From Fistulifera solaris (lineage: Eukaryota > Bacillariophyta > Bacillariophyceae > Naviculales > Stauroneidaceae), in assembly GCA_030295235.1 (NCBI GenBank), contig AP026120.1, positions 20,974 to 84,973 on the forward strand: a stretch of 64,000 nt of DNA, in the 5' to 3' direction. This document shows positions 17 to 38,865 of this stretch, piece by piece. Position 1 is the stretch's first letter. Each line of letters opens with the position of its first letter. The notes beneath the pieces are model-generated. The model ran no database searches. It saw only the letters and a list, made by a program, of their open reading frames with translations, and had not been told where the DNA came from. The translations under genes and the position numbers were made by a program.

Positions 17-64
17 TATGAAAATAGGGATTGAACCTATAAAATCACCTAATTGATTTTCATA
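17..64 (-). ncRNA. tRNA-like element A, just 3' of rns
   Basis: On the minus strand this 48-nt segment has a perfect 7-bp acceptor-like stem (TATGAAA/TTTCATA) and a perfect 5-bp T-arm (ATAGG/CCTAT with loop TTCAATC). Between them lies only one short hairpin (ATCA/TGAT). There is no room for both D and anticodon arms. It follows the 3' end of rns and precedes nad6 around the circle. I read it as a tRNA mimic that could direct RNase P and RNase Z cleavage; a severely truncated real tRNA is the alternative. Confidence 0.6.
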
Positions 65-65
65 T

Positions 66-1543
66 TTTTCCAGCTACACGTTCCCGTACAGCTACCTTGT
101 TACGACTTCATCCAAATCGCTAATTTTTCAATCGGTTAGAACAAAGTCAAACCTTCAAGTAAAACTAACTTTCTGCATGTGACGGGCGGTTTGTACAAGG
201 CTAATTGACATATTCACCGCAACATTCTGATTTGCGATTACTAGTGATTCCAACTTCATGTAAACGAGTTGCAGCTTACAATCCGAACTGGGAAAACTTT
301 TAGGAGATTAACAAAAATTTAATTTTAGTTACTTTTTGTAATTTTCATTGTAGCACGTGTGTAGCCCAATTCATAAGGGTCACATTGACTTGGCTTAATT
401 CTTCCTTCCTTCAACTTATAATTGACTGTAACTTTAAAGCTTTTTCTAAAATATTTTAGAAAAGTAAATAATTAAAGTCAAGAGTTGCGTTCGTTAAGGG
501 AACTAACCAAACATCTCACGACACGAACTGACGACAGTCGTGCAACACCTGTAATATTTCATTTTTTTAATTATCAGCAATAAATAAAAATAAAAATTTA
601 ATATTATGTCAAGAATTGGTAAGGTTTTGCGCGGATTATCGCATTAAACCACATGCTCCACCACTAGTATTAGCCCCCGTCAATTTCTTTGAGTTCCAAC
701 CTTGCGATCGTACTCCTCAGGCGGAGTGTTTATAGCGTTAGCTTAAAAATCTAAATAAATTTTAATTTTTACATTAAATTTCAACACTCATAATTTACAG
801 GTATGGACTACCAGGGTCTCTAATCCTGTTTGCTACCCATACTTTCGTCCCTCAACGTCAGTTTTTACCAAAAAGTCGCCTTCGCTAATGGTATTCCTTT
901 ATATATTTACAGATTTTACCCTTTCGTATAAAATTCTACTTTTCTGTATAAAACTCAAGCAAAGCAGTATTACAAGCTGTTTTAAAGTTGGGCTTTAAAT
1001 TTTAACAAGTAACTTACTTTACCGTCTACGGACTCTTTACGCCCAGTCATGATGAATAACGCTTGCCCTTCCCGTATTACCGCGACTGCTGGCACGAGTA
1101 TTAGCCAGGACTAATTCTTAAGTAATGTCATTATCATTCTTAATAAAGAAGTTTACAATCAAAAAAACCGTCTTTCGTTCATTTAGTATTGCTGGATCAG
1201 ACTTTCGTCCATTGTCCAATATTCCTCACTGCTGGCCGAAAACTCAGCCTGGACCTTATTTCAGTTCCAGTGTGGTTGATCATCCTCTAAGACCAACTAA
1301 AGATCAAAGGCTTGGTAAGCTATTAAATTTACCAACTACCTAATCTTACGCAGACCCATCTTTTAGCAGAAATACAAAATAACATCGTAAAACTTTTAAA
1401 ATATTCATGATTTATGATTTTGTCATGAACTAAAAGGTAGCAGTCTGCGCTTTCCTCACCCGTTCGCCACGAAAATAATTCCGTTAGACTTGCATGTGTA
1501 AAGCATACTAGTAGCGTTCATTCTGAGCCAGAATAAAACTCAT
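66..1543 (-). rRNA. rns: Small-subunit ribosomal RNA
   Basis: The minus strand carries the universal SSU landmarks: a 5' segment around 1,515-1,540 matching the bacterial 'CTCAGAATGAACGCT' region, the 530-loop and 'GGATTAGAGACCCTGGTAGTCC'-type segment near 810-830 (a little altered), the 'ACGACAGTCGTGCA'-region complement near 525-550, and the 3' 'GTAACAAGGTAGCTGTACGG' segment near 85-110. The ends are estimated. Several variable regions are very A/T-rich. It is cotranscribed downstream of rnl and is followed by tRNA-like element A. Confidence 0.95.
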
Positions 1544-1664
1544 ATTATAATAACATAAAATATTTATATAAAATTAAGTTAATTTGAATTTAAATCTAAT
1601 TTTGAATTATGAAATAATGTATAAAAATTTCACAAAGTTAAAAAATTTAAGTAATTTAATTTTA
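1544..1664. other. rns-rnl spacer
   Basis: About 120 bases of A/T-rich sequence between the two rRNA genes. I see no tRNA or open reading frame in it. Confidence 0.5.
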
Positions 1665-2242
1665 GTACTTGTCAGCTAAAAATTTTACAATTCTTACACT
1701 TCAAGCCTATCTATGTAATAGTCTTTTACATTTATATAAAAACTGATTTTAAGGTTAATTTCTCGCTTAGATGCTTTCAGCGATTATTTATTACGAATTT
1801 AGCTACTCGACAGTGCTATTGGTATAACAATCGATTCACCAGAGATTCGCTTTCTCCGGTCCTCTCGTACTAGGATTTAGTCCTTTCAGTTTTCAACACC
1901 TACGGTAGATAGGGACCAAACTGTCTCACGACGTTCTAAACTCAGATCATGTACCGCTTTCATTGGCGAACAGCCAAACCCTTGGAACCACTTACAGCTC
2001 CAGGATGCGATAATCCAACATCGAGGTGCCAAACCATTCCGTCGATAGGGTCTCTAGAGAATGATTAGCCTGTTATCCCCGGCGTACCTTTTATTCATTG
2101 AGCGATAACCGTTTCCACTTAGAATTATCGGATCACTATAACCGACTTTCGTCCCTGTTTGATTTGTCAATCTTACAGTCAAGCAAGTATATACTATTGC
2201 GCTTTAAAATTGGTATATATCAATTTAAACTTACCTTTGTAT

Positions 2243-2287
<45 letters not shown>

Positions 2288-2456
2288 ATTATACACTGTT
2301 TTAAATAAATTAGTAATAAAAAATTTTAAGAGTGGTATTTCAAAGATCGTTTAAGTAATTTGCTTGCGCAAAGACTCATTTATTCAATAGAAACTATTAA
2401 ATAAATATCAACTCCCACTTATGCTGCACATAAAAATTTTTATGACAATATATAAC

Positions 2457-2489
<33 letters not shown>

Positions 2490-4400
2490 CCGCAGGTACT
2501 CCGCATCTTCACGGAAAATTCAATTTCACTGAGATTATGTTGGAGACAGTAGGACAGTCGTTACGCCATTCATGCAGGACACCAATTAAATGCCAAGGAA
2601 TTTCGCTACCTTAGGACCGTCAGAGTTACAGCCGCCGTTTACTGGGAGTTAGGATCGAAGCGTAATTACTTCTTTCTTTAATCTTGCAGCACTGGGCAGG
2701 CGTCAGTCTCAATACATCTTTTTACAAATTAGCAGAGACCTGTGTTTTTAATAAACAGTCGCTGTCCTCGATTCTGTGACAACTTTACAAGGTTGCCCTA
2801 ATAAAGTTACTCCTTCTTCCGAAGTTACGGAGTCATTTTGCCGAGTTCCTTCAACATAATTATCTCAAGCGTCTTAATTTACTAAATTTGTCCACCTGTG
2901 TCGGTTTAAGTACGGTTTTTAAAATTTAAAGCTATTTCTTGAAAATAATATAAAACTTTTATTTTTACCATAAAATAAAAATAATATTTTTATTTTGTCA
3001 CTATAAATTAATAAAAAAATTTCATTTTTTACCCATCGATTAGAACTTTCGTTTTTCTCTTAGAGACCGATTAACTTTTACCAAAACGGATTAGCCTTGT
3101 TTTGGAAACCTAGGACTTAAGACGACAATGTTTCGCACATTGTTTATCGTTACTCATATCAACATTTTCACTCCTGAATTTTCTAAATTATGTTGTCCAT
3201 AATTTTTCACAAACATACAGGACGTTCTGCTACCATTAAACAATTTTTTTTGTTTAATCTACGGTTTCGGTAAATAGTTTAAGTCCCTTTACATTTTCAA
3301 TGCAAAAAAACTCGACCAATAAGCTGTTACGCTTTCTTTTGAGGCTGGCTGCTTCTAATCCTACCTATCGGTTGTCATCATTCTTTCACATTTTTTTCAC
3401 TTAACTATTTTTAAGGACCTTAACCTTTAGTCTGGGCTGTTTTCCCTCTCGACTATAGATCTTAGCATCTATAGTCTGTCTGCTTAAAGTCTTTTAAATT
3501 GTATTCGAAGTTTTAATAAACTCAGTAAGATTTTACTCCCCATTGCTTATCAAGAGCTCTACCCCAAATTAAAGAAATTTTAAACGCTCTACTTAAATAG
3601 ATTTCGCAGAAAACCAGCTATCTCTAAGTTTGATTGGCCTTTCACCCCTAACCACAAGTCATCCCAGTATTTTTCCACATACACGGGTTCGGTCCTCCAA
3701 TAAGTATTACTACTTGAAATTCAACCAGCTCATGGTTAGATCACTTAGTTTCGGGTCTTATTTTAGAAACTTAAAAACATTTTAAAATTCAATTTCTTTT
3801 CGCCTACGTAGATATTTTACTTAAGCTCGCTACTAAAATAAACTTGTTGATCCATTATACAAAAGGTACGTTGTCACTTTATAAAGCTACAACTGTTTGT
3901 TTGCATTAAAATTCATTATCTTTTCAATTTTACAAAATCTTTTTCACCTTTCCTTCACAGTACTTTTCACTATCAAACATCAAAAATTTTAGACTTTGAG
4001 GGTGGTCCCCCAATATTCAATCAATACACGACTTGTATCAATTTACTTTAATCAAAAGTTAAAATTAAATAGAATTTTACAGGGTTTTTACCTTCTCTGA
4101 CTTTTTAAAAAATTAAATTCTAAATTATAACTTTTTAGTCTAAGTCGCACATTCGCTCTCCACTACTAATGCTATCTCGGTTGATTTCTTTCTTAGTTAC
4201 TGAGATGATTCAGTTCACTAAGTTGAATTATGTTAATTATAAAATTAACACAAGTTTAAATTAAACAAAACTTGGTTTTCCATAATGGGAAATTGTAGTT
4301 CTCAGCAAAATATTTTACTCGCTACAAAATTTTGTTGTTAAACACCCACTTTTATTTTTTTGATGTATAGGAATTCCTTTAATGCATTATAAAACTTTTT
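1665..4400 (-). rRNA. rnl: Large-subunit ribosomal RNA
   Basis: Conserved LSU blocks are readable on the minus strand: the sarcin-ricin region near 1,850-1,875 (complement of 'CTCTCGTACTAGGA'), the peptidyl-transferase segments near 2,030-2,100 and 2,260-2,285, and the domain II/IV blocks near 2,460-2,640. The 3' end is placed near 1,665 and the 5' end just before trnH; both are approximate. Length, about 2.7 kb, is typical of protist mitochondria. It follows trnH and precedes rns, the usual stramenopile order. Confidence 0.94.
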
Positions 4401-4405
4401 AACTA

Positions 4406-4479
4406 GGCGAATAATAGGATTTGAACCTATGACCTCTAGAACCACAATCTAGCACTCTAACCAACTGAGTTATACCGCC
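4406..4479 (-). tRNA. trnH: tRNA-His (GUG)
   Basis: Cloverleaf with anticodon loop TTGTGGT (GTG) and a canonical T-arm. This copy lacks one C in the acceptor stem; the second copy (47,799-47,873) has CCCGCC and forms the full 7-bp stem, so the loss here is an error. It lies upstream of rnl. Confidence 0.92.
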
Positions 4480-4728
4480 AAATTGAATTTGAAAACTTTT
4501 TTCAAATTCAACTATCTTAGCTTTATTTATATTTGGTAAAACGAAATATGAACTTTTCAATGTAACTACAGACTCAAAACCCTCTAATAAAAAAAGTTCT
4601 ATGAATCTTTATAAAATAAATTCGCAAAGCTGAACATTTATTTTTGGACAAAAAAAGGTTACAATTCGACAAATTATTATATTTAGCTCTTCATTTTTAG
4701 TATTTTTCAATTAATTCTAAGTTTTGTT

Positions 4729-8175: not shown

Positions 8176-8178
8176 AAA

Positions 8179-8250
8179 TGTAAGAGATAAGAGTTGAACT
8201 TATATTTTCAGGGCATGAGCCTGACTGGTTACCGTTACCACACCCTTACA
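8179..8250 (-). tRNA. trnM(cau): tRNA-Met (CAU), first of three CAU tRNAs
   Basis: Acceptor TGTAAGG/TCTTACA, anticodon arm TCAGG-CTCATGC-CCTGA, T-loop TTCAACT. It sits between cox1 and cob. Whether it is the initiator, the elongator or the lysidine-modified Ile tRNA is not decided by the sequence alone. Confidence 0.85.
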
Positions 8251-8342: not shown

Positions 8343-10034
<1,692 letters not shown>

Positions 10035-10039: not shown

Positions 10040-10253
10040 CGATCCTTCTTTTTTTCTCTATAAGGGTTAAATTTTATTTATATTTATGTTCATATTAGTT
10101 CTAACTTTGCATTTACTAATTTATTTCATTTTTTTAATTTTTATAAAATACTTGATTTTTCTAGATAGCTTTAACAATCTAACAAAGTTTAAGTTCCTTT
10201 TATAAATGGTAGTTAATGAAATTTATCTTTTTTTACCCCCTTTTCAATCCCTA
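10040..10253 (+). repeat. Diverged partial unit U0 at the left edge
   Basis: It starts with 'CTCTATAAGGGTTAAATTTT' and then follows the unit only loosely ('TTTATATTTATGTTCATATTAG'). It looks like a decayed edge copy that has escaped homogenisation. Confidence 0.6.
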
Positions 10254-11199
10254 CCCTTTCTTTTTCCTCTATAAGGGTTAAATTTTATTTGTATTTTTAT
10301 TCATCTTAATTTTAGCTTTGCAGAGATTAGCTTATCTCATTTTTTTTAATTTACTAAAAGGAAAGTTTAGGTTTTGATTTTTATTAAAATTTTAATCATT
10401 TTGGAAATTTTGAATTATGTTTTTCTGTTTTGACCAATTCTTTTATTTATTTGCATTTTAGTCTATTTTAGGTATTTTCCAATTTTTTGGCCTAATGTTG
10501 ATTGGTTTTTCTTTTTCTTCTATAAGAATTGAATTTTATTTGTATTTTATTCATCTCAATTTTAGCTTTACAATTCTTAGCTTATTTTATTTTTTTAACA
10601 TGGCGTAGGATAAAACCCACATTTTGATTTTTGCCGCGATTTGAGCCTTTAATTTATTGACTCAAATCCTGTAGATTTCATAATTTTTGAATTCTTCTTT
10701 TTCCTTATTTTCATTTCCAATTTTGATATATTATTTAGCCAAAAAATTAAATTGAATTATGTTAACTTAATAGAAATAAGCATGAAATTGAAACATAGAT
10801 GAGAATGTAATGGTTAAATAAAGATGTAAAAAATTAATACTTTATGCATTTAATATATGTATATTATATATATTTATGTTAATATCCTATGTTTTTATAT
10901 TAAAGTTATTATATAACAACAGGAACAACTTCTAAAATAAGTGTGGGTTATAAATAATTTGATCTTTTCTTCTTAAAACTTTTTTACTCAGTCGTTTCTT
11001 TTTTTATAGTATAGGAATATTAAATTTTAGTCATTTTAATTTTAACTTTACACTTATTATCCTATATAATACCCTTTTTTGTAAATGATTTTATGTATTG
11101 GGGATTCTTATGATTTAAACCTCTATAATTGATCTAGCTCTAACTTGTTAGCTTCTTTTTGTAGTGTACTTCCCTATATTCCCCCTTTTTCAATTCCTA
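10254..11199 (+). repeat. Repeat unit U1, about 946 bp
   Basis: Full-length unit. It contains two internal, diverged versions of an 85-bp block ('CTATAAGGGTTAAATTTTAT' and 'CTATAAGAATTGAATTTTAT'), the 'ACATGGCGTAGGATAAAACC' segment, and the roughly 118-bp module with 'AACAGGAACAACTTCTAAAA'. Confidence 0.9.
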
Positions 11200-12029
11200 C
11201 CCCTTCTTTTTCCTCTATAAGGGTTAAATTTTATTTGTATTTTTATTCATCTTAATTTTAGCTTTGCAGAGATTAGCTTATCTCATTTTTTTTAATTTAC
11301 TAAAAGGAAAGTTTAGATTTTGATTTTTATTAAAATTTTAATCATTTTAGAAATTTTGAATTATGTTTTTCTGTTTTGACCAATTCTTTTATTCATTTGC
11401 ATTTTAGTCTATTTTAGGTATTTTCCAATTTTTTGGCCTAATGTTGATTGGTTCTTCTTTTTCTTCTATAAGAATTGAATTTTATTTGTATTTTATTCAT
11501 CTCAATTTTAGCTTTACAATTCTTAGCTTATTTTATTTTTTAACATGGCGTAGGATAAAACCCACATTTTGATTTTTGCCATGATTTGAGCCTTTAATTT
11601 ACTGACTCAAATCCTGTAGATTTCATAAATTTTGAATTCTTTTTTTCCTTATTTTCATTTCCAATTTTGATATATTATTTAGCCAAAAAATTAAATTGAA
11701 TTATGTTAACTTAATAGAAATAAGCATGAAATTGAAACATAGATGAGAATGTAATAATTAAATAAAGATGTAAAAAATTAATACTTTATACATTTAATAT
11801 ATATATATATTTATGTTAATACCCTATGTTTTTATATTAAAGTTATTATATAACAATTTTAGTCATTTTAATTTTAACTTTACACTTATTATTCTATATA
11901 ATACCCTTTTTGGTAAATTACTTTATGTATTGGGATTCCTATGATTTAAACCTCTAGAATTGATCTAGCTCTAACTTGTTAGCTTCTTTTTGTAGTGTAC
12001 TCCCTATATTCCCCCTTTTTCAATTCCTA
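11200..12029 (+). repeat. Repeat unit U2, about 830 bp, lacks the 118-bp module
   Basis: Nearly identical to U1, but the sequence passes directly from 'TTATTATATAACA' to 'ATTTTAGTCATTTTAATTTT' near 11,855, skipping the module present in U1 and U3. Confidence 0.9.
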
Positions 12030-12978
12030 CCCCTTCTTTTTCCTCTATGAGGGTTAAATTTTATTTGTATTTTTATTCATCTTAATTTTAGCTTTGCAGA
12101 GATTAGCTTATCTCATTTTTTTTAATTTACTAAAAGGAAAGTTTAGATTTTGATTTTTATTAAAATTTTAATCATTTTGGAAATTTTGAATTATGTTTTT
12201 CTGTTTTGACCAATTCTTTTATTTATTTGTATTTTAGGCTATTTTATAGGTATTTTCCACTTTTTTTAGCCTAATGCCGATTGGTTCTTCTTTTTCTTCT
12301 ATAAGGATTGGATTTTATTTGTATTTTATTCATCTCAACTTTAGCTTTACAATTCTTAGCTTATTTTCTTTTTTAACATGGCATTTAGGATAAAACCCAC
12401 ATTTTGATTTTTGCCATGATTTGAGCCTTTAATTTATTGACTCAAATCCTGTAGATTTCATAATTTTTGAATTCTTTTTTTCCTTATTTTCATTTCCAAT
12501 TTTGATATAGTATTTAGCCAAAAATTAAATTGAATTATGTTAACTTAATAGAAATAAGCATGAAATTGAAACATAGATGAGAATGTAATAATTAAATAAA
12601 GATGTAAAAAATTAATACTTTATGCATTTAATATATGTATATTATATATATTTATGTTAATATCCTATGTTTTTATATTAAAGTTATTATATAACAACAG
12701 GAACAACTTCTAAAATAAGTGTGGGTTATAAATAATTTGATCTTTTCTTCTTAAAACTTTTTTACTCAGTCGTTTCTTTTTTTATAGTATAGGAATATTA
12801 AATTTTAGTCATTTTAATTTTAACTTTACACTTATTATCCTATATAATACCCTTTTTTGTAAATGATTTTATGTATTGGGATTCTTATGATTTAAACCTC
12901 TATAATTGATCTAGCTCTAACTTGTTAGCTTCTTTTTGTAGTGTACTTCCCTATATTCCCCCTTTTTCAATTCCTACC
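12030..12978 (+). repeat. Repeat unit U3, about 949 bp
   Basis: Full-length unit with the 118-bp module (about 12,696-12,805). It carries private variants such as 'CCTCTATGAGGG' and 'GCATTTAGGATAAAACC'. Confidence 0.9.
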
Positions 12979-13568
12979 CCCTTCTTTTTTCCTCTATAAG
13001 GGTTAAATTTTATTTGTATTTTTATTCATCTTAATTTTAGCTTTGCAGAGATTAGCTTATCTCATTTTTTAATTTACTAAAAGGAAAGTTTAGATTTTGA
13101 TTTTTATTAAAATTTTAATCATTTTGGAAATTTTGAATTATGTTTTTCTGTTTTGACCAATTCTCTTATTTATTTGCGTTTTAGTCTATTTTAGGTATTT
13201 TCCACTTTTTTTGGCCTAATGTTGATTAGTTCTTCTTTTTCTTCTATAAGAATTGAATTTTATTTGTATTTTATTCATTTCAATTTTAGCTTTACAATTC
13301 TTAGCTTATCTTATTTTTTAACATGGCGTAGGATAAAACCCACATTTTGATTTTTGCCGCGATTTGAGCTTTTAATTTATTGACTCAAATCCTGTAGATT
13401 TCATAATTTTTGAATTCTTTCTTTTTCCTTATTTTCATTTCCAATTTTGATAATAGTATTTAGCCAAAAATTAAATTGAATTATGTTAACTTAATAGAAA
13501 TAAGCATGAAATTGAAACATAGATGAGAATGTAATGGTTAAATAAAGATGTAGAAAATTAATACTTAT
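12979..13568 (+). repeat. Truncated repeat unit U4 next to the palindrome centre
   Basis: It holds the first 580 bp or so of the unit, ending after 'GATGTAGAAAATTAATACTT'. Its first ~390 bp (to about 13,370) are mirrored by R0. Confidence 0.88.
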
Positions 13569-13665
13569 AGGTTAAAATCTAGATGAACAAAGATAAAATT
13601 CAACATCTTAAAAAACATATAAAAATTGATAAATAGTTGAATTTTGAACCTTTGTACAAAAGGCT
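13569..13665. repeat. Unique centre of the palindrome with a 10-bp hairpin
   Basis: About 95 bases found nowhere else in the array. They contain AAAATTCAAC (13,595-13,604) and its perfect inverse GTTGAATTTT (13,636-13,645) around a 31-nt A/T-rich loop. Position and structure fit a cruciform or origin core, but function is inference. Confidence 0.75.
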
Positions 13666-14043
13666 CAAATCATGACAAAAATCAAAATGTGGGTTTTATC
13701 CTACGCCATGTTAAAAAATAAGATAAGCTAAGAATTGTAAAGCTAAAATTGAAATGAATAAAATACAAATAAAATTCAATTCTTATAGAAGAAAAAGAAG
13801 AACTAATCAACATTAGGCTAAAAAAGTGGAAAATACCTAAAATAGACTAAAACGCAAATAAATAAGAGAATTGGTCAAAACAGAAAAACATAATTCAAAA
13901 TTTCCAAAATGATTAAAATTTTAATAAAAATCAAAATCTAAACTTTCCTTTTAGTAAATTAAAAAAAATGAGATAAGCTAATCTCTGCAAAGCTAAAATT
14001 AAGATGAATAAAAATACAAATAAAATTTAACCCTTATAGAGGA
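13666..14043 (-). repeat. Inverted partial unit R0
   Basis: Reverse complement of the first ~390 bp of U4, including the U4-specific variants 'AACTAATCAACATTAGGCTA' and 'AATAAGATAAGCTAAG'. This shows the two innermost copies have been kept alike. Confidence 0.88.
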
Positions 14044-14871
14044 AAAAGAAGGGGGTAGGAATTGAAAAAGGGGGAATATAGGGAAGTACACTACAAAAAG
14101 AAGCTAACAAGTTAGAGCTAGATCAATTCTAGAGGTTTAAATCATAGGAATCTCAATACATAAAGTCATTTACCAAAAAGGGTATTATATAGGATAATAA
14201 GTGTAAAGTTAAAATTAAAATGACTAAAATTGTTATATAATAACTTTAATATAAAAACATAGGGTATTAACATAAATATATATATTAAATGTATAAAGTA
14301 TTAATTTTTTACATCTTTATTTAACCATTACATTCTCATCTATGTTTCAATTTCATGCTTATTTTTATTAAGTTAACATAATTCAATTTAATTTTTTGGC
14401 TAAATAATATATCAAAATTGGAAATGAAAATAAGGAAAAGAAGAATTCAAAATTTATGAAATCTACAGGATTTGAGTCAATAAATTAAAGGCTCAAATCA
14501 TGGCAAAAATCAAAATGTGGGTTTTAGCCTAATGTCATGTTAAAAAAGAAAATAAGCTAAGAATTGTAAAGCTAAAGTTGAGATGAATAAAATACAAATA
14601 AAATCCAATCCTTATAGAAGAAAAAGAAGAACCAATCGGCATTAGGCCAAAAAAGTGGAAAATACCTAAAATAGACTAAAATGCAAATGAATAAAAGAAT
14701 TGGTCAAAACAGAAAAACATAATTCAAAATTTCCAAAATGATTAAAATTTTAATAAAAATCAAAATCTAAACTTTCCTTTTAGTAAATTAAAAAAATGAG
14801 ATAAGCTAATCTCTGCAAAGCTAAAATTAAGATGAATAAAAATACAAATAAAATTTAACCCTTATAGAGGA
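14044..14871 (-). repeat. Inverted unit R1, about 828 bp, lacks the 118-bp module
   Basis: Reverse-complement unit in which 'ATGACTAAAAT' passes straight to 'TGTTATATAATAACTTTAAT' near 14,226, the same junction as in U2. Confidence 0.9.
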
Positions 14872-15717
14872 AAAAGAAGGGGTAGGAATTGAAAAAGGGG
14901 GAATCTAAGGAAAAGAGTACACTACAAAAAGAAGCTAACAAGTTAGAGCTAGATCAATTATAGAGGTTTAAATCATAGGAATCTCAATACATAAAGTCAT
15001 TTACCAAAAAGGGTATTATATAGGATAATAAGTGTAAAGTTAAAATTAAAATGACTAAAATTTAATATTCTTATACTATACAAAAGAAACGACTGAGTAA
15101 AAAAGTTTTAAGAAGAAAAGATCAAATTATTTATAATCCACACTTATTTTAGAAGTTGTTCCTGTTGTTATATAATAACTTTAATATAAAAACATAGGGT
15201 ATTAACATAAATATATATATTAAATGTATAAAGTATTAATTTTTTACATCTTTATTTAACCATTACATTCTCATCTATGTTTCAATTTCATGCTTATTTT
15301 TATTAAGTTAACATAATTCAATTTAATTTTTTGGCTAAATAATATATCAAAATTGGAAATGAAAATAAGGAAAAGAAGAATTCAAAATTTATGAAATCTA
15401 CAGGATTTGAGTCAATAAATTAAAGGCTCAAATCATGGCAAAAATCAAAATGTGGGTTTTAGCCTAATGCCATGTTAAAAAAGAAAATAAGCTAAGAATT
15501 GTAAAGCTAAAGTTGAGATGAATAAAATTCAAATAAATAAAAGAATTGGTCAAAACAGAAAAACATAATTCAAAATTTCCAAAATGATTAAAATTTTAAT
15601 AAAAATCAAAATCTAAACTTTCCTTTTAGTAAATTAAAAAAAATGAGATAAGCTAATCTCTGCAAAGCTAAAATTAAGATGAATAAAAATACAAATAAAA
15701 TTTAACCCTTATAGAGG
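14872..15717 (-). repeat. Inverted unit R2, about 846 bp, internally deleted
   Basis: It has the 118-bp module (about 15,062-15,170) but lacks about 115 bp between 'GATGAATAAAATTCAAATA' and 'AATAAAAGAATTGGTC' near 15,525-15,540, a deletion not seen in other units. Confidence 0.88.
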
Positions 15718-16097
15718 AAAAAGAAGGGGGTAGGAATTTAAAAAGGGGGAATATAGGGAGTACACTACAAAAAGAAGCTAACAAGTTAGAGCTAGATCAA
15801 TTATAGAGGTTTAAATCATAGGAATCTCAATACATAAAGTCATTTACCAAAAAGGGTATTATATAGGATAATAAATGTAAAGTTAAAATTAAAATGACTA
15901 AAATTTAATATTTTTATAATATAAAAAAGAAACGACTGAGTAAAAAAAGTTTTAAGAAGAAAAGATCAAATTATTTATAGCCCACACTTATTTTAGAGTT
16001 GTTCCTGTTGTTATATAATAGCTTTAATATAAAAACATATGGTATTAACATAAATAAAATATATATATATATATATTAAATGTATAAAGTATTAATT
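15718..16097 (-). repeat. Inverted terminal partial unit R3
   Basis: It contains the tail of the unit with the 118-bp module and an expanded AT dinucleotide tract (16,056-16,077), ending at 'AAAGTATTAATTT' just before orfA. Because it is directly upstream of a rightward gene, any outward promoter of the unit tail would serve orfA here. Confidence 0.85.
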
Positions 16098-16126: not shown

Positions 16127-17325
16127 ATGCCAATTAAAAATAAAGAAAGAGAACTAGTTACTTCTTCTGAAAATTTGAAAAATTTACCTGATGAGAATCT
16201 GCTTTTTTCTCCAAGTTCTAATTTACAAATTAATGAAGAAAATCCAATAGATGTCTATACTTTGTCAACTAGAAATGATCTTAATTTTAGTTCTTTGTTT
16301 AAAAGTCAGACCAATGGTACTGTCGATTTAACTGATGCTATATTTCCAAATTCTGCGCGACAAGTACGTTACAAATCTGAAGATGTGGATATTGAAAATT
16401 TAAAGACCCACACATTTGAATTGTACCAGTTAAATTTAAAAAAAAAAGAAGGACAAAGTAACCAACTTGCTTTTCGTGATTTTACCGAAATTGAAAATTC
16501 ATCTGAATTTAAGGATTCAGAACTTTTAGCCAAATATAATGCCTTAACTACAGAAGAACCTTATCGCACATCATATATTAATTCTCACATTGACGTTTCT
16601 TTAATGAGTAATGAAGCTTTTTTAACATTAGCAGAGCAATCTAGAATGTTGATAACCAGAATTTTAGCATTTGTAAAAGTCGATGACTTATCTTTTACAT
16701 CATTACTACGCTATCTTCGAGTGCTAGCAGATCCAACCTCTATTAACGAACTCGATATCTTTGTTGATTCAAAAGAGTATTTTAAAAAAGCTCTTCTTAG
16801 TTGTTATAATTTATTTTTATATAGTTCGACTTTCGTAGCTTGTACATTATTTCAAGATAATAATGTGGATCCTAACCGATTAAAATATGCGGCGATTGCA
16901 ATGACTTTAATTAAAATACTTCATAATACTAACTTATCAGTAGGTATCGCGAAAACAGAAACTAATTACTTTTTTTAAAACTGTGCGAGAATCATTACAA
17001 TTAAAATATTACATTCCTAAACTATCAGAGTATATGTTACCCAAGTTACCAGAGTTTTTAAAAACTAGTTTTAAAAAAATGTCGCCTTTTGTAAAACGAT
17101 CTTGTTTATTTGTTATACAATCGACTAGTCTTGCGATTTGTGGTTATGTGATTAATGAAAATTCAGGCAATCTTTTAACGATTTCACAAAATAATACTCA
17201 TCAGTTAAATCTAAGCTTTACTCAAAGTCGGAATGATTGGTTTGATAAATTTTTAGAAATTTTATTTTTTAGTTTTTCTAATATCTAATGTTTATTTAAA
17301 TTTGTTAATTCTACACAAATCATAA
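16127..17325 (+). CDS. Orphan protein orfA, about 398 residues after two indel corrections
   Basis: I do not recognise this protein. As read it is two frames, 16,127-16,978 (283 codons) and 16,983-17,288. A T7 run at 16,970-16,976 is T5 in the second copy; T6 would join the frames as '..TNYFFKTVRESL..'. A T6 run near 17,265-17,270 is T5 in the second copy, which continues into a hydrophobic tail '..FLVFLISNVYLNLL..' ending at 17,325, one base before orfB. The first ~210 residues are polar and acidic; hydrophobic segments lie near 'SCYNLFLYSSTFVACTLF', 'SCLFVIQSTSLAICGYVI' and the C-terminus. A lineage-specific membrane-associated protein is the most that can be said. Confidence 0.7.
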
Positions 17326-17326: not shown

Positions 17327-18082
17327 ATGTCAACTAAAACAATTTTAAAGCCATTCTTTGAGCCAATAGAAATAATAATCAAAGAATTTTATCTACTTAT
17401 ACTAAATCTTACTCCTTCTTATGCAGTTATAACAAGGTTAATATTTATGAGTATTTTAGTTTCAAAAATTATTCTTGTTGTGCCAGGTTCTTCTCTAAAA
17501 ATTCCTGTTCTTTATAATGCAGCGAGTCTTTATTTAAATGAAATAACAGAAATCTGGTCGGAATTTAAATCTTTCTTTTATTCTTTAATAACTTATTTTC
17601 AACAAAATTCTGCGTTATATCAAGAAAAAAGTTTGCTTGTAGTTGAAAATACTATGTATAAAGAATTATTAGATTCTTTAAAATTAGAAAATCATACACT
17701 AAATTTGGAATTGCGAACTATACAAGAAGCGAATGCGCAATACAAAGCTGAAAATTCATTGTTGTTGCAAGAATTATCTAGGTCAAAGACTATTAATCAA
17801 TTCGATAACATTATAAGAATAGCGGGTTCTATTATCGGCGTTGCGAACATTTTTACAAATTGTCTAAATTTGGGTACAATGTTCTACAATTTTATAATTC
17901 CTTCAAAAAAATTAGCTGAAGTTAGCTTATCAGTTCAAGATAAAGAATTATTAAAGGACACTCATAATTATGCAATGAAATCTGTTGAGTCTAAAATATT
18001 AGATCAAGCAGCTAATACTAAACAGTATAATATTTTTGACGGTGCAAAGAGTTTATTTGATATTAGTCGTGAAGGTGGCTAA
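17327..18082 (+). CDS. Orphan membrane/coiled-coil protein orfB, 251 residues
   Basis: Unrecognised. It starts with ATG one base after the inferred stop of orfA, so the two are probably one transcript. Residues about 20-60 are strongly hydrophobic ('FYLLILNLTPSYAVI', 'IFMSILVSKIILVV'). About 100-160 are rich in E, L, N and Q with heptad spacing, suggesting a coiled coil. About 165-200 are again hydrophobic ('IAGSIIGVANIFTNCLN'), followed by a polar tail. It could be a scaffold in the inner membrane, but no family motif is visible. It is read intact here and broken by two homopolymer losses in the second copy. Confidence 0.75.
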   Translation: MSTKTILKPFFEPIEIIIKEFYLLILNLTPSYAVITRLIFMSILVSKIILVVPGSSLKIPVLYNAASLYLNEITEIWSEFKSFFYSLITYFQQNSALYQEKSLLVVENTMYKELLDSLKLENHTLNLELRTIQEANAQYKAENSLLLQELSRSKTINQFDNIIRIAGSIIGVANIFTNCLNLGTMFYNFIIPSKKLAEVSLSVQDKELLKDTHNYAMKSVESKILDQAANTKQYNIFDGAKSLFDISREGG

Positions 18083-20858: not shown

Positions 20859-21179
20859 TTAAATTTTATTAGTTAGTTTTTTTTTTATAGGATCTAACTG
20901 AATAGAATTTTTTAATCGGTAAAAAACTGTTATAATAGCAAGACCGATTGCCGACTCCGCAGCAGCTATTGTTAGTACAAATATAACAAAAATTTGTCCA
21001 ATAATATCATCTAAATAAATAGAAAACGCTGCAAAGTTTAAGTTTATAGCAAGTAATAAAAGTTCAATTGACATAATAGTTATTAAAATATTTTTACGAT
21101 TAAAAATTATTCCTGCCAATCCAATAACAAAAACCAAAGAAGTTGTGATTAATAAATAATTTATATTGATAGTTAACAT
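20859..21179 (-). CDS. nad4L: NADH dehydrogenase subunit 4L
   Basis: Small three-helix membrane subunit of complex I, 106 residues. It starts at the ATG giving 'MLTININYLL'; the frame is open further upstream, but that part lies in trnK. The conserved glutamates and 'AAAESAIGLAI' motif of NuoK/Nad4L are present. trnK precedes it; trnD on the other strand follows. Confidence 0.95.
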   Translation of the reverse strand: MLTININYLLITTSLVFVIGLAGIIFNRKNILITIMSIELLLLAINLNFAAFSIYLDDIIGQIFVIFVLTIAAAESAIGLAIITVFYRLKNSIQLDPIKKKLTNKI

Positions 21180-32709: not shown

Positions 32710-32724
32710 TCTAAATTTATTTTT

Positions 32725-32796: not shown

Positions 32797-32799
32797 TTT

Positions 32800-32976: not shown

Positions 32977-33320
32977 CGATATTTCTAAACTTTTTTCTTT
33001 TTTTTTTATTCAAAGAAAGTTTAATTTTAAGTTTTAAATCTGATAAAATTTTTTCTTTAATGTTTTTCAAGAAAAATACATTTTTAAATTTATTAAAATT
33101 ATAACTTGATAATTGTCTAGAAAACATATGACTCTCAAACTGTTCTTGAGCTTTTTTGTTTACATGTGGTGATTTTAAAATTGTTAAAATACGCCTTTTT
33201 GTTTTTTTTCTTAAAATGCTTTTTTAGACCAGATTTTTTAAAATCATTTAATAAAAATAAAAAAGCATTGTTTAAGGAATTCTTATTTTTTGAAGAAAAT
33301 GTTATATGATAAGCTTTCAT
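32960..33320 (-). CDS. rps10: Ribosomal protein S10 (one +1 frameshift)
   Basis: It begins 'MKAYHITFSSKNKNSLN'. An 8-A run (coding strand, 33,202-33,209) must be 7 to continue 'KKKTKRRILTILKSPHVNKK' in outline, where 'LKSPHVNKKAQEQFE' is the S10 hallmark. The frame then ends at 32,960 after '..NIDVSPK'. Corrected length is 119 residues. S10 is a 30S head protein. It lies downstream of atp6. Confidence 0.88.
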
Positions 33321-33343
33321 AAAAGTTTAATTATTGAAAATTA

Positions 33344-34112
33344 TTAACTTCCGTCTTGGATATAAATACAAGTTAAAATAACAAATACATAAGTTTGAAT
33401 TAAAGCTACTCCCAATTCTAAACCAAATAATATAACAACGATAACCATTGGTAAAATTAGTCCTAAAGAAGTTAAATTCTCAAGTAGTAACATACTCCAA
33501 GCAAAACCTATAATAACTTTTAATAAGCTATGTCCAGCCATTAAATTAATAAATAATCGCATACCTAAACTAATAGGTCGAGCAATATAAGAAATAAATT
33601 CAATAGGAACTAAAATTAAAGCTAAAAAGAAACTACTGTTTGCTGGAAGGAATAACGCAAATCCTTGCATTTTATACTTTTCAAAAGTCATAATAGTAAT
33701 TCCAATGAAAATTGAAAATGATAAAGTAAAAGTAACAATTACGTGACTAGTTGCTGTAAAAGTATAAGGTATTAAACCAATCAAATTACTGAATAAAATG
33801 AAATTAAACACTACAGAGATAATTGGAACATATTTTTGGTTATCTGTAGTGATTATATCAGAAATTAATTGAGCAGATGCTTCTGAAATACCCTCAATTG
33901 TTTTTTTGCCATGCGTTTGGATTAAAATAAATTGATGTTTTTTGAAAAGAGCTGGCTTCTACTCTTGCGCTGCTTAAATAAATAAGGCTTGAAAAAATAG
34001 TTAAAGCTAATATGTTAATTAATAAAAAGTTTGTTATTGAAAAGTCTAAGTTTAAAAATTTAATATTTACTAATGATAATATTTGAAATTGTTCTAATGG
34101 AGCTTTTAGCAT
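33344..34112 (-). CDS. atp6: ATP synthase subunit a (one +1 frameshift)
   Basis: Proton-channel subunit of Fo. The essential arginine is in 'LGMRLFINLMAGH', and 'LELGVALIQTYVFVILTCIY' is the conserved last helix. At 33,901-33,907 (T7 on this strand, A7 coding) six bases are needed to join '..NPNAWQKT' to 'IEGISEASAQLISDI..'. Corrected length is 255 residues. Upstream lies tRNA-like element B rather than a tRNA. Confidence 0.96.
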
Positions 34113-34144
34113 TTATGATAATAATTATATATGTAAAATATATA

Positions 34145-34210
34145 TTGAAATAAAAGGATTCGAACCTTTAGCATACCCTCTTATCACATCTTGTGATAAG
34201 ATTATTTCAA
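34145..34210 (-). ncRNA. tRNA-like element B between rps14 and atp6
   Basis: Minus strand, 66 nt: an acceptor-like stem of 8 bp (TTGAAATA/TATTTCAA), a perfect T-arm AAAGG-TTCGAAT-CCTTT, and in place of D and anticodon arms one 9-bp hairpin TCTTATCAC-AAGAT-GTGATAAGA followed by 9 unpaired bases. No anticodon loop of seven bases can be drawn. It sits where rps14 and atp6 transcripts must be separated and would suit cleavage as a tRNA mimic. Confidence 0.6.
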
Positions 34211-34243
34211 TTATACGTGTAGTTTCATAGCAAAAAAAGAAGT

Positions 34244-34543
34244 TTACCAACTAGATTTTTTCATTCCATTTATTTTACCTAGTCGAATCAATTTTAACAG
34301 AACATGTCTTGAAAAATTAGTATTTTTATTAAATCTTTTTTTGTTTATAGTTGCGACACATCGATTTGAAAATTTAGTTTTATTATTAGTTGTGGATAAT
34401 AAATTCAATTTTAGATACGCATTCCATCGTACTAAAGTAAAAAAATTTGAGTTTTTGTAAATAGATTTTAATATTAAATATTTTTTTTCTATCTCAGAAA
34501 ATTGTGATCTTAATTTTTTATCTTTTGCAAATAATTTTTTCAT
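34244..34543 (-). CDS. rps14: Ribosomal protein S14
   Basis: 99 residues. The C-terminal half 'NRCVATINKKRFNKNTNFSR' in outline and the end 'GKINGMKKSSW' are diagnostic of mitochondrial/bacterial S14 without zinc ligands. It starts 2 bases after the stop of nad9. Confidence 0.95.
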   Translation of the reverse strand: MKKLFAKDKKLRSQFSEIEKKYLILKSIYKNSNFFTLVRWNAYLKLNLLSTTNNKTKFSNRCVATINKKRFNKNTNFSRHVLLKLIRLGKINGMKKSSW

Positions 34544-34545
34544 GC

Positions 34546-35108
34546 TTATTTTTTATTAAAAACTTCCCATGGTGAAATAAACTCAAAAGTTCTATATTCT
34601 TGAGCTAATTCTACATTTTCGTATACAACTCGATTTTTTGTTACATTGTACCGTGCTTCAGTATATCCACTTAAAGGAAAATCTTTTCTTAACGGGTAAC
34701 CTTGAAAACCATAATCAGTTAATAAACGAGTCAAACTTGAATGATTAAGAAAAAATATACCATACATGTCAAAATTTCAGATTCCCACCATCCTGCTGCT
34801 GGAAATACTTTTTGAATAGAGTGTACTGGAGTTAATTCATCTGTTAAAATTTTTATTCTAACTCTTCCATTGTAATGAATACTTAAAAGATCGTAGACAA
34901 CTTGAAATCTATATAAGTTTTCAGGATAGTCTACTCCTGAAACACAAGTTAAAACTTTAAATCGATAATTAAAATGATTTTTAAGAACTTGCATCACGTT
35001 TACTATGGAGTTAGTTGGAGTTAAAAATACTGCTTCTTCTTCATTATAAAGTTCGAATCTTACGATTGGTAATATTTTAATTATATTTTCACTTATAGAT
35101 AATAGCAT
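34546..35108 (-). CDS. nad9: NADH dehydrogenase subunit 9 (one frameshift)
   Basis: 30-kDa-type peripheral-arm subunit (NuoC family). '[13 protein letters not shown]'-like segment, '[10 protein letters not shown]' and, after the break, '[20 protein letters not shown]' with '[16 protein letters not shown]' are canonical. A 4-base T run (coding strand, 34,771-34,774) must be 5 to give 'ESEIFDMYGI'. Corrected length is 187 residues. Confidence 0.95.
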
Positions 35109-35118
35109 TTATATTAAT

Positions 35119-35309
35119 TTAAAATTTTAAATATTGTTTTTTATATTTAACAGACTGATAAGAAGTTTTAGTAAAATTAGTGGTTTGTTTTTTGTTTAAA
35201 AAAAGTTTTTATGATCTTTATCATATGCTTTAAATTGCTTAAAAGCTGGACTAGATAAAGTAGTTAAATTTATACTTCCATCAGATAATAACTGAATATA
35301 TTTTGTCAT
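35119..35309 (-). CDS. Small ORF between nad7 and nad9, possibly L31-like
   Basis: ATG at 35,309 gives 'MTKYIQLLSDGSINLTTLSS'. As read it stops after 37 codons at a T7 run (35,198-35,204); T8 extends it to 63 residues with a basic end '..SVKYKKQYLKF'. The 'SDG..' turn near residue 10 and the basic '.KF' end faintly recall ribosomal protein L31 of the alphaproteobacterial type. The nad7-nad9 gap would otherwise be 205 empty bases, unusual in this compact part. Tentative. Confidence 0.35.
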
Positions 35310-35313
35310 TTTT

Positions 35314-36510
35314 TTACCTATCAATTTCACCAAAAACAACGTCTAGAGTTCCAATAATAGTTACAACATCAGCTAGCATGTGGCCACGTGACATATAGTC
35401 TAAAGCTTGCAGATGACCAAATCCTGGTGCTTTTATTTTACACCTGTAAGGTTTATTAGTATTGTCTGAAACTAAATAAACACCAAATTCACCTTTTGGT
35501 GCTTCAGTTGCTGTATAAGTTTCATTAGCTGGAATAGAAATTCCATTTGTGTAAATTTTAAAATGATGAATCATACCTTCCATAGAAGATTTCATTTCAG
35601 TTCTAGTCGGTGGGCATAGTTTATTGTCATTTGTCTTAACTAATCCTTCTGGAATCTTATTTAAACATTGTGAAATTATATTTAATGACTCTTTCATTTC
35701 AATAATTCTAATTAAATATCTATCATAACAATCACCGTTTGTTCCAACTGGAATAGCAAAATCAATTTGATCATATATCTCATAAGGTTGACTTTTTCTT
35801 AAATCCCAGTTTATACCCGAACCTCTTAGCATTACTCCACTAAATCCCCAATCCATAGCGTCTTTAGAAGAAACAACTCCTACATCAATTAGTCTCTGTT
35901 TCCAAATTCGGTTTTCAGACAACATTTCCTCAATTTCTAATAATCTATTAGTAAACTGCTCTACAAAAATATAAATATCTGAAAGCAAACCTTTAGGCAG
36001 ATCTACATGAACACCACCAGGTCTAAAATAAAAAGCATGCATTCTTGCACCAGAAACTCTTTCGTAAAACTCCATCAATTTTTCACGCTCCTCGAAACCC
36101 CAAAGCATAGGAGTCATAGCACCAACATCCATAGCATGGCAGCCGACTGCAAGCAAGTGATTTAAAATACGAGTAATTTCGGCAAATATTACACGAATAT
36201 ATTTCGCTCTTTCAGGAATTTTACAATTCAATAATTTTTCAACAGCTAAGCAATATGAATGCTCTTGAGCTAGCATAGACACATAATCTAATCGATCAAA
36301 ATATGGCAAAGCTTGTAAATAATTTTTATATTCTATTAATTTTTCGGTTCCTCTATGTAAAAGTCCGATATGTGGAGTTGCTTTTATCACAGTTTCACCT
36401 TTTAACTCAAGTAATAATCTTAAAACACCGTGCGCAGCTGGATGCTGTGGTCCGAAATTTAAAGTAAAATTTTTTACTTTTTTTAATAAATCCTTTTTTT
36501 TAAAAGTCAT
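35314..36510 (-). CDS. nad7: NADH dehydrogenase subunit 7
   Basis: 398 residues, the 49-kDa-type subunit lining the quinone site. '[19 protein letters not shown]' in outline, '[16 protein letters not shown]', 'RPGGVH' and the C-terminal '[20 protein letters not shown]' are all conserved. It reads intact from ATG to stop and lies between trnI and the small ORF before nad9. Confidence 0.98.
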
Positions 36511-36548
36511 AAAATATATTTAAAATACAAATTTTATTATAGACTGCT

Positions 36549-36621
36549 AAGCTTAAGTAGACTTGAACTACCGACCTTGCGCTTATCAGGCACATGCTCT
36601 AACCAACTGAGCTATAAGCTT
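36549..36621 (-). tRNA. trnI(gau): tRNA-Ile (GAU)
   Basis: Acceptor AAGCTTA/TAAGCTT, D-arm GCTC/GAGC, anticodon arm TGTGC-CTGATAA-GCGCA (GAT), T-arm GGTAG/CTACT. Confidence 0.92.
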
Positions 36622-36629
36622 TTAACTTA

Positions 36630-37428
36630 TTAATTAAACTCTAAATTTGACATTATCACATAATGATACTGTACAGATGGAACTGCAAATAAAACAATAG
36701 GCATAAATCCATGGTTAACACCACAAATCTCACTACACTGTCCAAAGAAAAGTCCAAATCTCTTAATGAATAAATTAGCTTGATTCAATCTTCCTGGGCA
36801 AGCATCTACTTTTATTCCAAAAGATGGGATAGTCCAACTATGTAATACGTCTACTGCAGTAATTAACAATCGCAAGTGGGTATTTGTAGGTAAGATAACA
36901 CGTTTATTTGTTTCTAAATTCCGAAAAAAACCCATTGCATTTTTTTTCTTTTAATGACTCATCAGTAAGCATATAACAAGAATATTTTAAATGCTGAGTA
37001 CCTGAACAAGAGTTGAAATCAGAAATTTCGTAACTCCAATACCATTGGTGACCTAAAATCTTTAAAGTTAACTCAGGATTTGAAATTTCGTCTAAACTAT
37101 ACAAAAGAGAAAAAAGACGGTGAAGCTATACTTAAAAGAATTAAAGCAGGAACAGAAGTCCAAATAATTTCTAATGCGTTATTATGAGTAAAATTACTTG
37201 GTTTACTGTTACTAAATTCCATAAAGTTTCTTATAACTAAAAATAATAACCAAGCTACTACAGTCACAATCGCAATAATTACAAACAATAAATGAAGGTT
37301 AAATAAAAAAATACCCTCCATAACTGTAGTGGCAGGATCTTGAAATCCTAATTGATATGCTGAACTACTATCTCCGAACCAATTACTTATAATTATAAAC
37401 ACAGGGATAGAAGTGTTTTAAAAAACAT
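36630..37428 (-). CDS. cox2: Cytochrome c oxidase subunit 2 (frameshifts)
   Basis: CuA-bearing subunit of complex IV. '[19 protein letters not shown]' in outline, '[16 protein letters not shown]', 'GHQWYWSYE', '[15 protein letters not shown]' and the CuA site '[15 protein letters not shown]' are canonical. Two extra bases break it: T6 should be T5 (37,110-37,115, joining 'SPSF' to 'SLLYSLDE') and A8 should be A7 (36,940-36,947, joining 'LKEKN' to 'AMGFFRNLE'). The uninterrupted frame begins only at a GTG (37,402). An ATG at 37,428 opens a leader-like '[11 protein letters not shown]' in a neighbouring frame, suggesting a third indel. Mature part about 256 residues. Confidence 0.95.
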
Positions 37429-37467
37429 TTTTATTATTTAATATTCAATTTAACGAAAGAATATTTT

Positions 37468-37852
37468 TTAGTCCCAGTCTAACGCACGAACATACCAGAC
37501 GTAAAAAAACCCAATACCTAACTCAAATAAGAAATCAATCATAGACCAAAAACCTAATAGATCTAATTTAGCTAAAGAAACACACCAAGGGATTAAAAAC
37601 ATAATTTCGATATCGAAAATAATGAATAAAATAGCAATTACACAAAATCGAACGTCAAATGTATGACGAGTATCTTCGTAAGGCTCAAAGCCACACTCAT
37701 AAGCCGATAATTTTTCAGGATCGGGATTTTGTCTAACTAAAAAATAAGACGCACCAATAATAACAATGGTTAATAAAACAGCAATTACTAAAAAAGTTAA
37801 AAGAACAGAATATTCTTTTTTTTATTAAAGAGTCTTCGAAAAAAAACATCAT
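37468..37852 (-). CDS. nad3: NADH dehydrogenase subunit 3 (one +1 frameshift)
   Basis: Three-helix complex I subunit. From ATG (37,852) 'MMFFFEDSLIKKEYSVLLT' in outline; an A8 run (coding strand, 37,816-37,823) must be A7 to stay in frame. Then come 'KLSAYECGFEPYEDTRHTFD' with the functionally important loop cysteine, 'FCVIAILFIIFDIEIMFLIP' and 'VWYVRALDWD' at the end. Corrected length is 127 residues, close to the family norm of 115-120. It lies between cox3 and cox2 with no tRNA on either side. Confidence 0.95.
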
Positions 37853-37879
37853 ATTATAATCAAAATTTGCCATGAAAAT

Positions 37880-38710
37880 TTATTTATTACTCCACCAGTA
37901 TACATTTATAAATAAGAATAACCAAACAACATCTACAAAATGCCAATACCAAATGGCAGATTCAAAACCAAAATGGTGTCTATTTGTAAAATGATTTAGT
38001 ACAATACGAATAAATGAAACTAATAATGCAATAGTTCCAACGAAAACGTGAAATCCATGAAATCCAGTTGCCATGTAGAAACAAGAACCATATATACCAT
38101 CACTAATAGTAAAAGGTGCATTTACATACTCGAAACCCTGTAAACAAGTAAAAATAGTAGCTAAAACTAGAGTGAAAAGTAAAGCTACTAAAGTATGCTT
38201 TTTAGCTCTTGATAATAAAGCATGATGAGCCCAAGTTACGCTAGCACCTGAAGTTAATAAAATAAAAGTATTTGTTAAAGGAACAGTGTAAGTACTAATA
38301 GTACTAATAGCTTTTAGTGGCCACACTCCACCTAAGTTATAGGTTGGAGCGATACTAGAGTGAAAAAATGCCCAAAAGAATGCAAAAAAAAACATAATCT
38401 CCGAAACAATAAATAAAATCATTCCTAATCGTAGACCTTTTTGAACAGTAACAGTATGTGTATCCTCGAATGTAGCTTCTCGAACAATATCTCGCCACCA
38501 GGTATACATTGTGTATAAAACAATCAAAAATCCTGTAATTAAAAGATTCCACCCTCCTATAAATTTATGCATATATAAAACAACTCCGCTAGTTAACATG
38601 AAAGCACCAAAAGACGCAAAAATAGGCCAAGGGCTAGGATCTACTAGATGATAAGAATGAGTTGTTTTTAAATATTTAAATTGTTCTTTTAGTAATAAAG
38701 TATTAGACAC
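37880..38710 (-). CDS. cox3: Cytochrome c oxidase subunit 3
   Basis: 276 residues, seven helices. 'HLVDPSPWPIFASFGAF', 'MFFFAFFWAFFHSSIAP', 'TGFHGFHVFVGTIALLV' and 'WYWHFVDVVWLFLFINVYWW' are canonical. Intact frame. It is preceded by tRNA-like element C rather than by a tRNA. Confidence 0.98.
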   Translation of the reverse strand: MSNTLLLKEQFKYLKTTHSYHLVDPSPWPIFASFGAFMLTSGVVLYMHKFIGGWNLLITGFLIVLYTMYTWWRDIVREATFEDTHTVTVQKGLRLGMILFIVSEIMFFFAFFWAFFHSSIAPTYNLGGVWPLKAISTISTYTVPLTNTFILLTSGASVTWAHHALLSRAKKHTLVALLFTLVLATIFTCLQGFEYVNAPFTISDGIYGSCFYMATGFHGFHVFVGTIALLVSFIRIVLNHFTNRHHFGFESAIWYWHFVDVVWLFLFINVYWWSNK

Positions 38711-38772
38711 TTTACCGCTTTTATTTTTTTTTACTCGAGTTAATATTTATTAAATTATGTAAGATATTCATT

Positions 38773-38865
38773 GTAAGAAATAAGATTTGAACTTATAATT
38801 AAGGAACTTTTTAACATTCTTATTAGTTGTCTCATTTGTAACATTTTTGCTACCAACTTTCTTAC
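38773..38865 (-). ncRNA. tRNA-like element C between rps13 and cox3
   Basis: Minus strand, 93 nt: perfect 7-bp acceptor-like stem GTAAGAA/TTCTTAC and perfect T-arm ATAAG-TTCAAAT-CTTAT. The 61-nt interior contains a 5-bp hairpin GTAGC/GTTAC and an AGTTG/CAACT pairing but no standard D-arm and no seven-base anticodon loop on a five-base stem. It lies 24 bases beyond the true rps13 stop and 62 bases before cox3. Confidence 0.55.

Follow-up and report, generated by a model that had tools for sequence, protein, structure and literature searches.

The mitochondrial DNA (mtDNA) in the Fistulifera solaris assembly GCA_030295235.1 contains three short minus-strand elements, E1, E2 and E3, which resemble incomplete transfer RNA (tRNA) genes and lie at borders between protein or ribosomal RNA (rRNA) genes. 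We analysed positions 20,974 to 84,973 of contig AP026120.1, a stretch of 64,000 nucleotides (nt) referred to as the window. Judged from their sequences, E1, E2 and E3 are likely to be t-elements, acting as cut sites for the ribonucleases P and Z (RNase P and RNase Z). A first-pass annotation of the window had proposed the same. We confirm that the elements are real, exceed chance expectation, are placed at borders, have the shape expected of RNase P and RNase Z sites and have counterparts in related mtDNAs; its further suggestion that they are not decayed tRNAs is not supported.

All three elements lie on the minus strand at the coordinates first reported, with perfect Watson–Crick pairing in the acceptor stem and the T-arm. 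E1 (17–64, with an identical second copy at 43410–43457) follows straight after the small-subunit rRNA gene. It has a 7-base-pair (bp) acceptor stem, TATGAAA/TTTCATA, and the T-arm ATAGG-TTCAATC-CCTAT. E2 (34145–34210), at the rps14/atp6 border, has an 8-bp acceptor stem, and its interior is a single hairpin of 8–10 bp with a loop of 3–5 nt. E3 (38773–38865), at the rps13/cox3 border, carries the stop codon of the rps13 frame inside its 5′ strand. The elements had been described as having neither D-arm nor anticodon arm. E1 indeed lacks an anticodon arm, but its 17-nt interior can form a D-arm (ATCA-ATTAGG-TGAT) with GG in the loop, and E3 has a D-loop-like stretch, GTTGGTAGC.

A strict scan of the 43,393-bp mitochondrial unit, in which a 7-bp acceptor stem had to be directly stacked on a 5-bp T-arm with the loop TTCRANY, returned 20 matches: 17 inside tRNAs called by ARAGORN, plus E1, E2 and E3. 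Applied to 100 dinucleotide-shuffled sequences, the same scan matched 0.03 times on average and never more than once, and a chance origin of the three elements was therefore dropped. A relaxed scan, allowing at most one mismatch per stem, found 17 further non-tRNA matches in the unit and others in relatives, and is too noisy to be used alone. None of the three elements is a complete decoding tRNA. ARAGORN called no cloverleaf for any of them, none reached the Rfam tRNA gathering score of 29 bits (22.9 for E2, 21.4 for an inner 52-nt version of E3 at 38772–38823, and 15.7 for E1), and none has the anticodon arm with a 7-nt loop of a functional tRNA. Transfer-messenger RNA was rejected as an identity, with no family of that kind among the Rfam matches up to E 10.

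In the window, a single mitochondrial circle of 43,393 bp (∼43.4 kb) has been assembled in tandem, about 1.5 times over: positions 1–20,665 reappear starting at 43,394, the two stretches differing by 2 mismatches and 68 gap openings. The window represents the mtDNA of a 51.7-Mb assembly of 61 contigs, two of which, C58 (42,898 bp) and C59 (43,000 bp), are single copies of the circle with ∼98–98.7% identity and differences that are nearly all gaps. E1 and E2 with their flanks show no difference in C58 and C59, while E3 differs by four and two single-base gaps only, in homopolymer runs. A sequencing artefact was rejected because the elements are the same in all three contigs save for homopolymer lengths. 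The border between E2 and atp6 is present four times in the assembly, always in mtDNA contigs.

To trace the origin of the elements, a core of 31 nt comprising both acceptor strands and the T-arm was compared position by position with tRNAs. E2 agrees with the trnQ(UUG) of the window (9837–9908, minus strand) at 29 of 31 positions and has exactly its T-arm; E3 agrees with trnM(CAU) (8178–8250, minus strand) at 27 of 31. Both probable donors were identified by ARAGORN and Rfam as well as by this comparison. Among pairs of different window tRNAs, 252 of 253 agree at 25 positions or fewer and one pair at 28. On these core sequences, we regard the tRNA origin of E2 and E3 as firm. A single duplicated tRNA as the source of all three was rejected, since the donors differ and the cores of E1, E2 and E3 resemble one another at only 17–18 of 31 positions. 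The first-pass annotation was thus right only in that no one duplicated tRNA gave rise to the set; the elements have three different sources, and each is tRNA-derived (from trnQ, trnM and probably a tRNA(CAU)). The common plan on which it saw them built is the portion common to all tRNAs.

The closest tRNA to E1 was found in G002, a relative that falls with the window in a four-member clade (below). It is the tRNA(CAU) at the rns/nad6 border, which agrees with E1 at 22 of 31 positions, the best of 87 ARAGORN rows from the window and its relatives, three other tRNAs standing at 21. In contig C16 of G002, the rns end CTGGAAAAA is followed immediately by this tRNA, an intact cloverleaf, and then by nad6. 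In the window, the rns end CTGGAAAAA is followed immediately by E1, whose outer stem ATGAAA/TTTCAT is as in the G002 tRNA(CAU). E1 would most simply be a relic of tRNA(CAU) left in its old place, because it occupies the same position as the intact G002 gene and has nearly the same outer stem while the anticodon arm is gone; the ancestral place is judged here from one relative. Place and moderate similarity together indicate that E1, too, is probably of tRNA origin. The window counterpart of the G002 border tRNA is a tRNA(CAU) beside trnR (40817–40890, minus strand), with 24 of 31 core positions alike.

Compared with their donors, the three elements have accumulated 11 stem substitutions, none of which has left any of the 36 pairs broken, and five pairs are altered on both sides. 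The chance of all 12 pairs surviving random substitution is 0.00095 for E1, 0.040 for E2 and 0.013 for E3, although this test assumes independent changes and E1 was compared across species, so that some of its changes lie on the branch of the working tRNA.

Each element lies on the same strand as the adjacent genes, at a border between protein or rRNA genes, as had been claimed. The rns gene (58–1549; RF00177, 1018.7 bits) abuts E1 with its 3′ end. The right-hand neighbours of E1 were read from the second tandem copy: a probable 5S rRNA segment discussed below, and then nad6 (42602–43216; PF00499, 21.2 bits, under the cut-off of 33.2). The rns/nad6 junction named in the first-pass annotation is amended accordingly, while rps14/atp6 for E2 and rps13/cox3 for E3 stand. 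Upstream of E2 is rps14 (34244–34543; PF00253, 25.1 bits, just under the cut-off of 27) and downstream is atp6 (33344–34112), in two frames. The 3′ piece of atp6 matches PF00119 and the 5′ piece has no Pfam match; both pieces match one gene of G002. E3 is flanked upstream by rps13 (38862–39239; PF00416) and downstream by cox3 (37880–38771 from a candidate start; PF00510), all these genes being on the minus strand.

Real tRNAs of the window stand in a comparable relation to coding sequences. The six respiratory genes checked have start codons 2–37 nt behind a tRNA: trnQ–cox1 9 nt, trnM–cob 2, trnS–nad5 16, trnI–nad7 37, trnR–nad4 12 and trnC–nad1 8. The atp6 start lies 32 nt beyond E2. A candidate cox3 ATG lies 1 nt beyond the 3′ end of E3; the A-run at the cox3 start differs between the three contigs (9, 7 and 6 residues), and at no length observed is that ATG in the cox3 frame.

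Relatives were obtained from a nad7 scan of genome contigs, as the best 80 of 453 loci. Thirteen of these were placed in a tree, nine in the ARAGORN table, and five (L017, L018, L020, L022 and L023) were compared gene by gene; L019, L021, L024 and L025 were taken as mtDNA solely for their nad7, low G+C and complement of tRNAs. The five contigs compared gene by gene were found in genome records that bear bacterial labels (Flavobacteriaceae, Paenibacillus roseus, Halobacteriovorax and Pseudolysobacter). In the nad7 tree, the window pairs with L023 (100/99); L017 (genome G001) and L018 (genome G002) join them to make a clade of four (100/100). Searches for closer relatives with cox3 and nad7 in viral contigs, and with the rns 3′-end pattern, yielded none. 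The cox1 search of viral contigs gave 7 loci (five checked, for G+C content only), and cox1 DNA, searched at E≤1e-100 in 397 genomes of the family of G001 and 129 of that of G003, matched no genome other than G001 and G003.

Comparable non-tRNA elements occur within this clade. G001 has a strict one behind cob (L017 644–708), ending 3 nt before the ATG of the next frame, and its RNAfold minimum-energy fold, like that of E2, forms both acceptor stem and T-arm. In G002, a strict element lies at the rps13/cob border (C16 4830–4900). A second, found in the relaxed scan with one acceptor mismatch, lies at nad5/atp6 (C16 23464–23533). The latter was counted solely for its place and its similarity to the trnM of G002, with which it shares 24 of 31 core positions, the same D-arm and most of the T-arm. 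The strict scan gave no such extras in L018, L115 and L023, nor in L019, L020, L021, L022, L024 and L025, the six contigs scanned that lie outside the clade. Neither L023 nor L017 has an element behind rps13; the junctions that carry elements differ by species.

Under the reading we favour, E1, E2 and E3 would be former tRNA genes or copies of tRNAs that have lost decoding and were retained for the acceptor stem stacked on the T-arm and, in E1, also for the D-arm. In a long minus-strand transcript, RNase P would cut at the 5′ end of each element and RNase Z at the 3′ end, as for tRNAs. Excision of E1 would release the small-subunit rRNA at its 3′ end; removal of E2 would separate rps14 from the atp6 messenger RNA (mRNA), giving the former its 3′ end and the latter its 5′ end, and removal of E3 would do the same for rps13 and the cox3 mRNA. 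We infer transcription and cutting of the elements, the action of these enzymes in this mitochondrion and the absence of aminoacylation. Elsewhere in the same assembly, on contigs other than those of the mtDNA, three loci score above the Pfam cut-off for PRORP and are candidate genes for a protein-only RNase P; in the Rfam search of the window, no match to an RNase P RNA reached the gathering threshold. Arabidopsis PRORP1 is reported to cut a substrate without anticodon arm efficiently, while in the same report removal of the D-loop left no detectable cutting and a bare acceptor–T hairpin was bound ∼200-fold more weakly (PMC4975455).

Several observations weigh against this reading, besides the assumptions of the substitution test and the thin lead of the closest tRNA to E1. 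E2 has no evident D-loop GG, so that the PRORP1 results suit E1 best and E2 least. Among E1–E3, only E2 combines tRNA homology with a minimum-energy fold that contains the acceptor stem and the T-arm, whereas in E1 and E3 RNAfold pairs the T-arm bases otherwise, and the fold of the G002 nad5/atp6 element is not tRNA-like. The interior of E3 is 62 nt long and allows two alternative 5′ strands. At least three long tRNA-free junctions of the window are without a strict element: cox3/nad3 (58 nt), nad3/cox2 (74 nt) and nad7/nad9 (205 nt). Among the relatives searched, none has this set of three elements, and neither the L017 element nor the G002 rps13/cob element has an evident donor, the best tRNA agreeing at 20 of 31 positions.

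Other explanations were weighed. If E1–E3 were non-functional pseudogenes, thrown off by tRNA duplication and gene-order shuffling and not yet eroded, the clear tRNA descent of E2 and E3 would be expected, and gene order does vary among the related mtDNAs. However, the interiors have been lost or replaced and yet all 36 stem pairs remain intact despite the 11 substitutions; all three elements lie at borders and share the strand of the genes beside them, and such border elements recur in G001 and G002. We consider this explanation unlikely. It is hardly credible, in turn, that the elements are aberrant tRNAs still at work, without arms or with an intron, supplying for instance the tRNA-Thr that is missing. 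ARAGORN found no trnT in the window, and arm-less tRNAs are known from animal mitochondria, as PMC8662596 mentions. However, absence of trnT is described as the general state of stramenopiles (PMC6723347, PMC11528492), the 17-nt interior of E1 is too small for an anticodon arm, the sole hairpin of E2 has a loop of 3–5 nt, ARAGORN and Rfam (at its cut-off) reject all three elements, and the donors trnQ and trnM are still intact in the window. The identity as tRNA-Thr was dropped for want of an anticodon arm.

A complication specific to E1 arises from what is probably the core of a 5S rRNA, perhaps a permuted one, at 43321–43406 on the minus strand, 3 nt past the element. The permuted 5S model RF02547 matches 43328–43433 with 19.5 bits (E 0.36), below its gathering score of 39, and in this alignment the 5S helices extend back into E1. 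A homologous segment lies between trnE and trnS in L018 (6396–6499; local score 60 versus a maximum of 42 in 1000 shuffles). Two alternative partners exist for the E1 3′ acceptor strand TTTTCATA: the 5′ strand of E1 and the 5S strand TATTAAAA, with which 7 of 8 positions can pair. Element and 5S rRNA may therefore overlap and compete; E1 could be a dual-purpose element, or its T-arm could now be a 5S hairpin. The extreme form of this idea, in which E1 is no t-element at all, a permuted 5S rRNA has the T-arm-like structure of E1 as its first hairpin and the acceptor pairing is a coincidence, strikes us as quite improbable. The alignment across the hairpin speaks for it, as does an RNAfold hairpin in L018 placed 14 nt before a shared ACCTGA motif, the distance from the E1 T-arm in the window being 13 nt. 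But the RF02547 score is half the gathering cut-off, several pairs that the model expects in that hairpin are unformed, and the L018 counterpart has no RF02547 match at E≤5. The idea is also hard to square with the T-loop consensus, the perfect 7-bp acceptor stem and the possible D-arm at precisely the position that an intact tRNA takes in G002, a genome with its 5S-like segment elsewhere. A more elaborate picture, which we regard as rather doubtful, would give this lineage its own t-element system, built from spare copies of trnQ, trnM and tRNA(CAU) where gene shuffling had left tRNA-free junctions, with E1 fused to the 5S gene so that cutting of the tRNA mimic and folding of the 5S rRNA are mutually exclusive.

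As for the rest of the circle, ARAGORN found 23 tRNAs in the 43.4-kb unit. Rfam alone reports one more at 4406–4478 (minus strand), by its place the trnH of the first copy; the trnH of the second copy (47798–47873) is called by both programs. The names nad2, cox2 (beside nad3), nad4 and nad9 are presumed from the first-pass annotation and gene order, and are unconfirmed by a subfamily-specific model. The frames of nad5, nad4, atp6 and cox2 are split, with pieces that match single genes in relatives; these apparent frameshifts are probably sequence errors, because the differences between copies are almost all gaps. Some 6 kb of direct and inverted repeats, with several short repeated frames, occupy 10236–16079. 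Between them and nad11 lie plus-strand open frames at 16127–16978, 16983–17288 and 17327–18082; the two longer ones were scanned and have no Pfam match at E≤0.01. Between nad7 and nad9, a short minus-strand frame (35109–35313) that begins ATGACAAAATATATTCAG may be a small ribosomal protein gene.

The lineage had been labelled bicosoecid, which we find unproven. In two bicosoecid mtDNAs, those of Cafeteria and Cafileria, UGA is reported to encode tryptophan (PMC6723347, PMC6972860). Here, eight genes or pieces (cox1, cob, cox3, nad7, the main piece of nad1, one piece of nad4, rpl2 and rps3) contain no in-frame UGA, and trnW has the anticodon CCA. As a counterpoint, a few other frames of the window, nad5 and nad6 among them, contain one UGA each, possibly through frame errors.

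Were the t-element reading true, t-elements would be no plant speciality, and compact mitochondrial genomes could arrive at them independently, a tRNA copy being kept for its shape alone after a change in gene order. Stages of the process would be visible together, with one species having an intact tRNA at the rns border, another a tRNA without its anticodon arm there, and with trnQ and trnM copies put to use at further borders. The minimal substrate of RNase P and RNase Z would then be open to a natural experiment. A further implication is that mtDNAs of other protists may contain such elements at tRNA-free junctions, concealed under the thresholds of tRNA finders. We found no paper on stramenopile t-elements in the open-licence literature, judged by titles and abstract starts among the matches listed, which is weak evidence of absence.

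T-elements themselves are known from plant mitochondria, and our best reading is that E1–E3 are their counterpart in a stramenopile-like lineage. To our knowledge, no link of origin connects the elements with tRNA-like structures of the mascRNA type, which differ in being nuclear and in belonging to a single transcript. In animal mitochondria, tRNAs between genes are described as being excised by RNase P and RNase Z (PMC10941002). The six respiratory genes that begin 2–37 nt past a tRNA recall this arrangement, but the RNAs excised in animals are working tRNAs, unlike E1–E3. The closest likeness is with angiosperm t-elements, described as tRNA-homologous, non-decoding structures at mRNA and rRNA gene borders that are regarded as RNase P and RNase Z cut sites, and as CCA-tailed and not aminoacylated (PMC11658184). 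They are proposed to have been gained in the ancestor of streptophyte algae, none being reported in Pediastrum (PMC8003010). In Silene, an arm-less stem-loop derived from tRNA-fMet and located 58 bp from atp6 is thought to be a t-element (PMC8662596), a parallel to the trnM-derived element that precedes atp6 in G002. RNA ends, CCA tails and lack of charging have been demonstrated in plants, whereas E1–E3 are known from sequence alone. E1–E3 share with the plant elements tRNA homology, the absence of decoding and the placement at mRNA and rRNA gene borders; they differ in lineage, donors and junctions, and E1 stands apart in lying between the small-subunit rRNA and a probable 5S rRNA and in resembling a tRNA that lacks its anticodon arm only.

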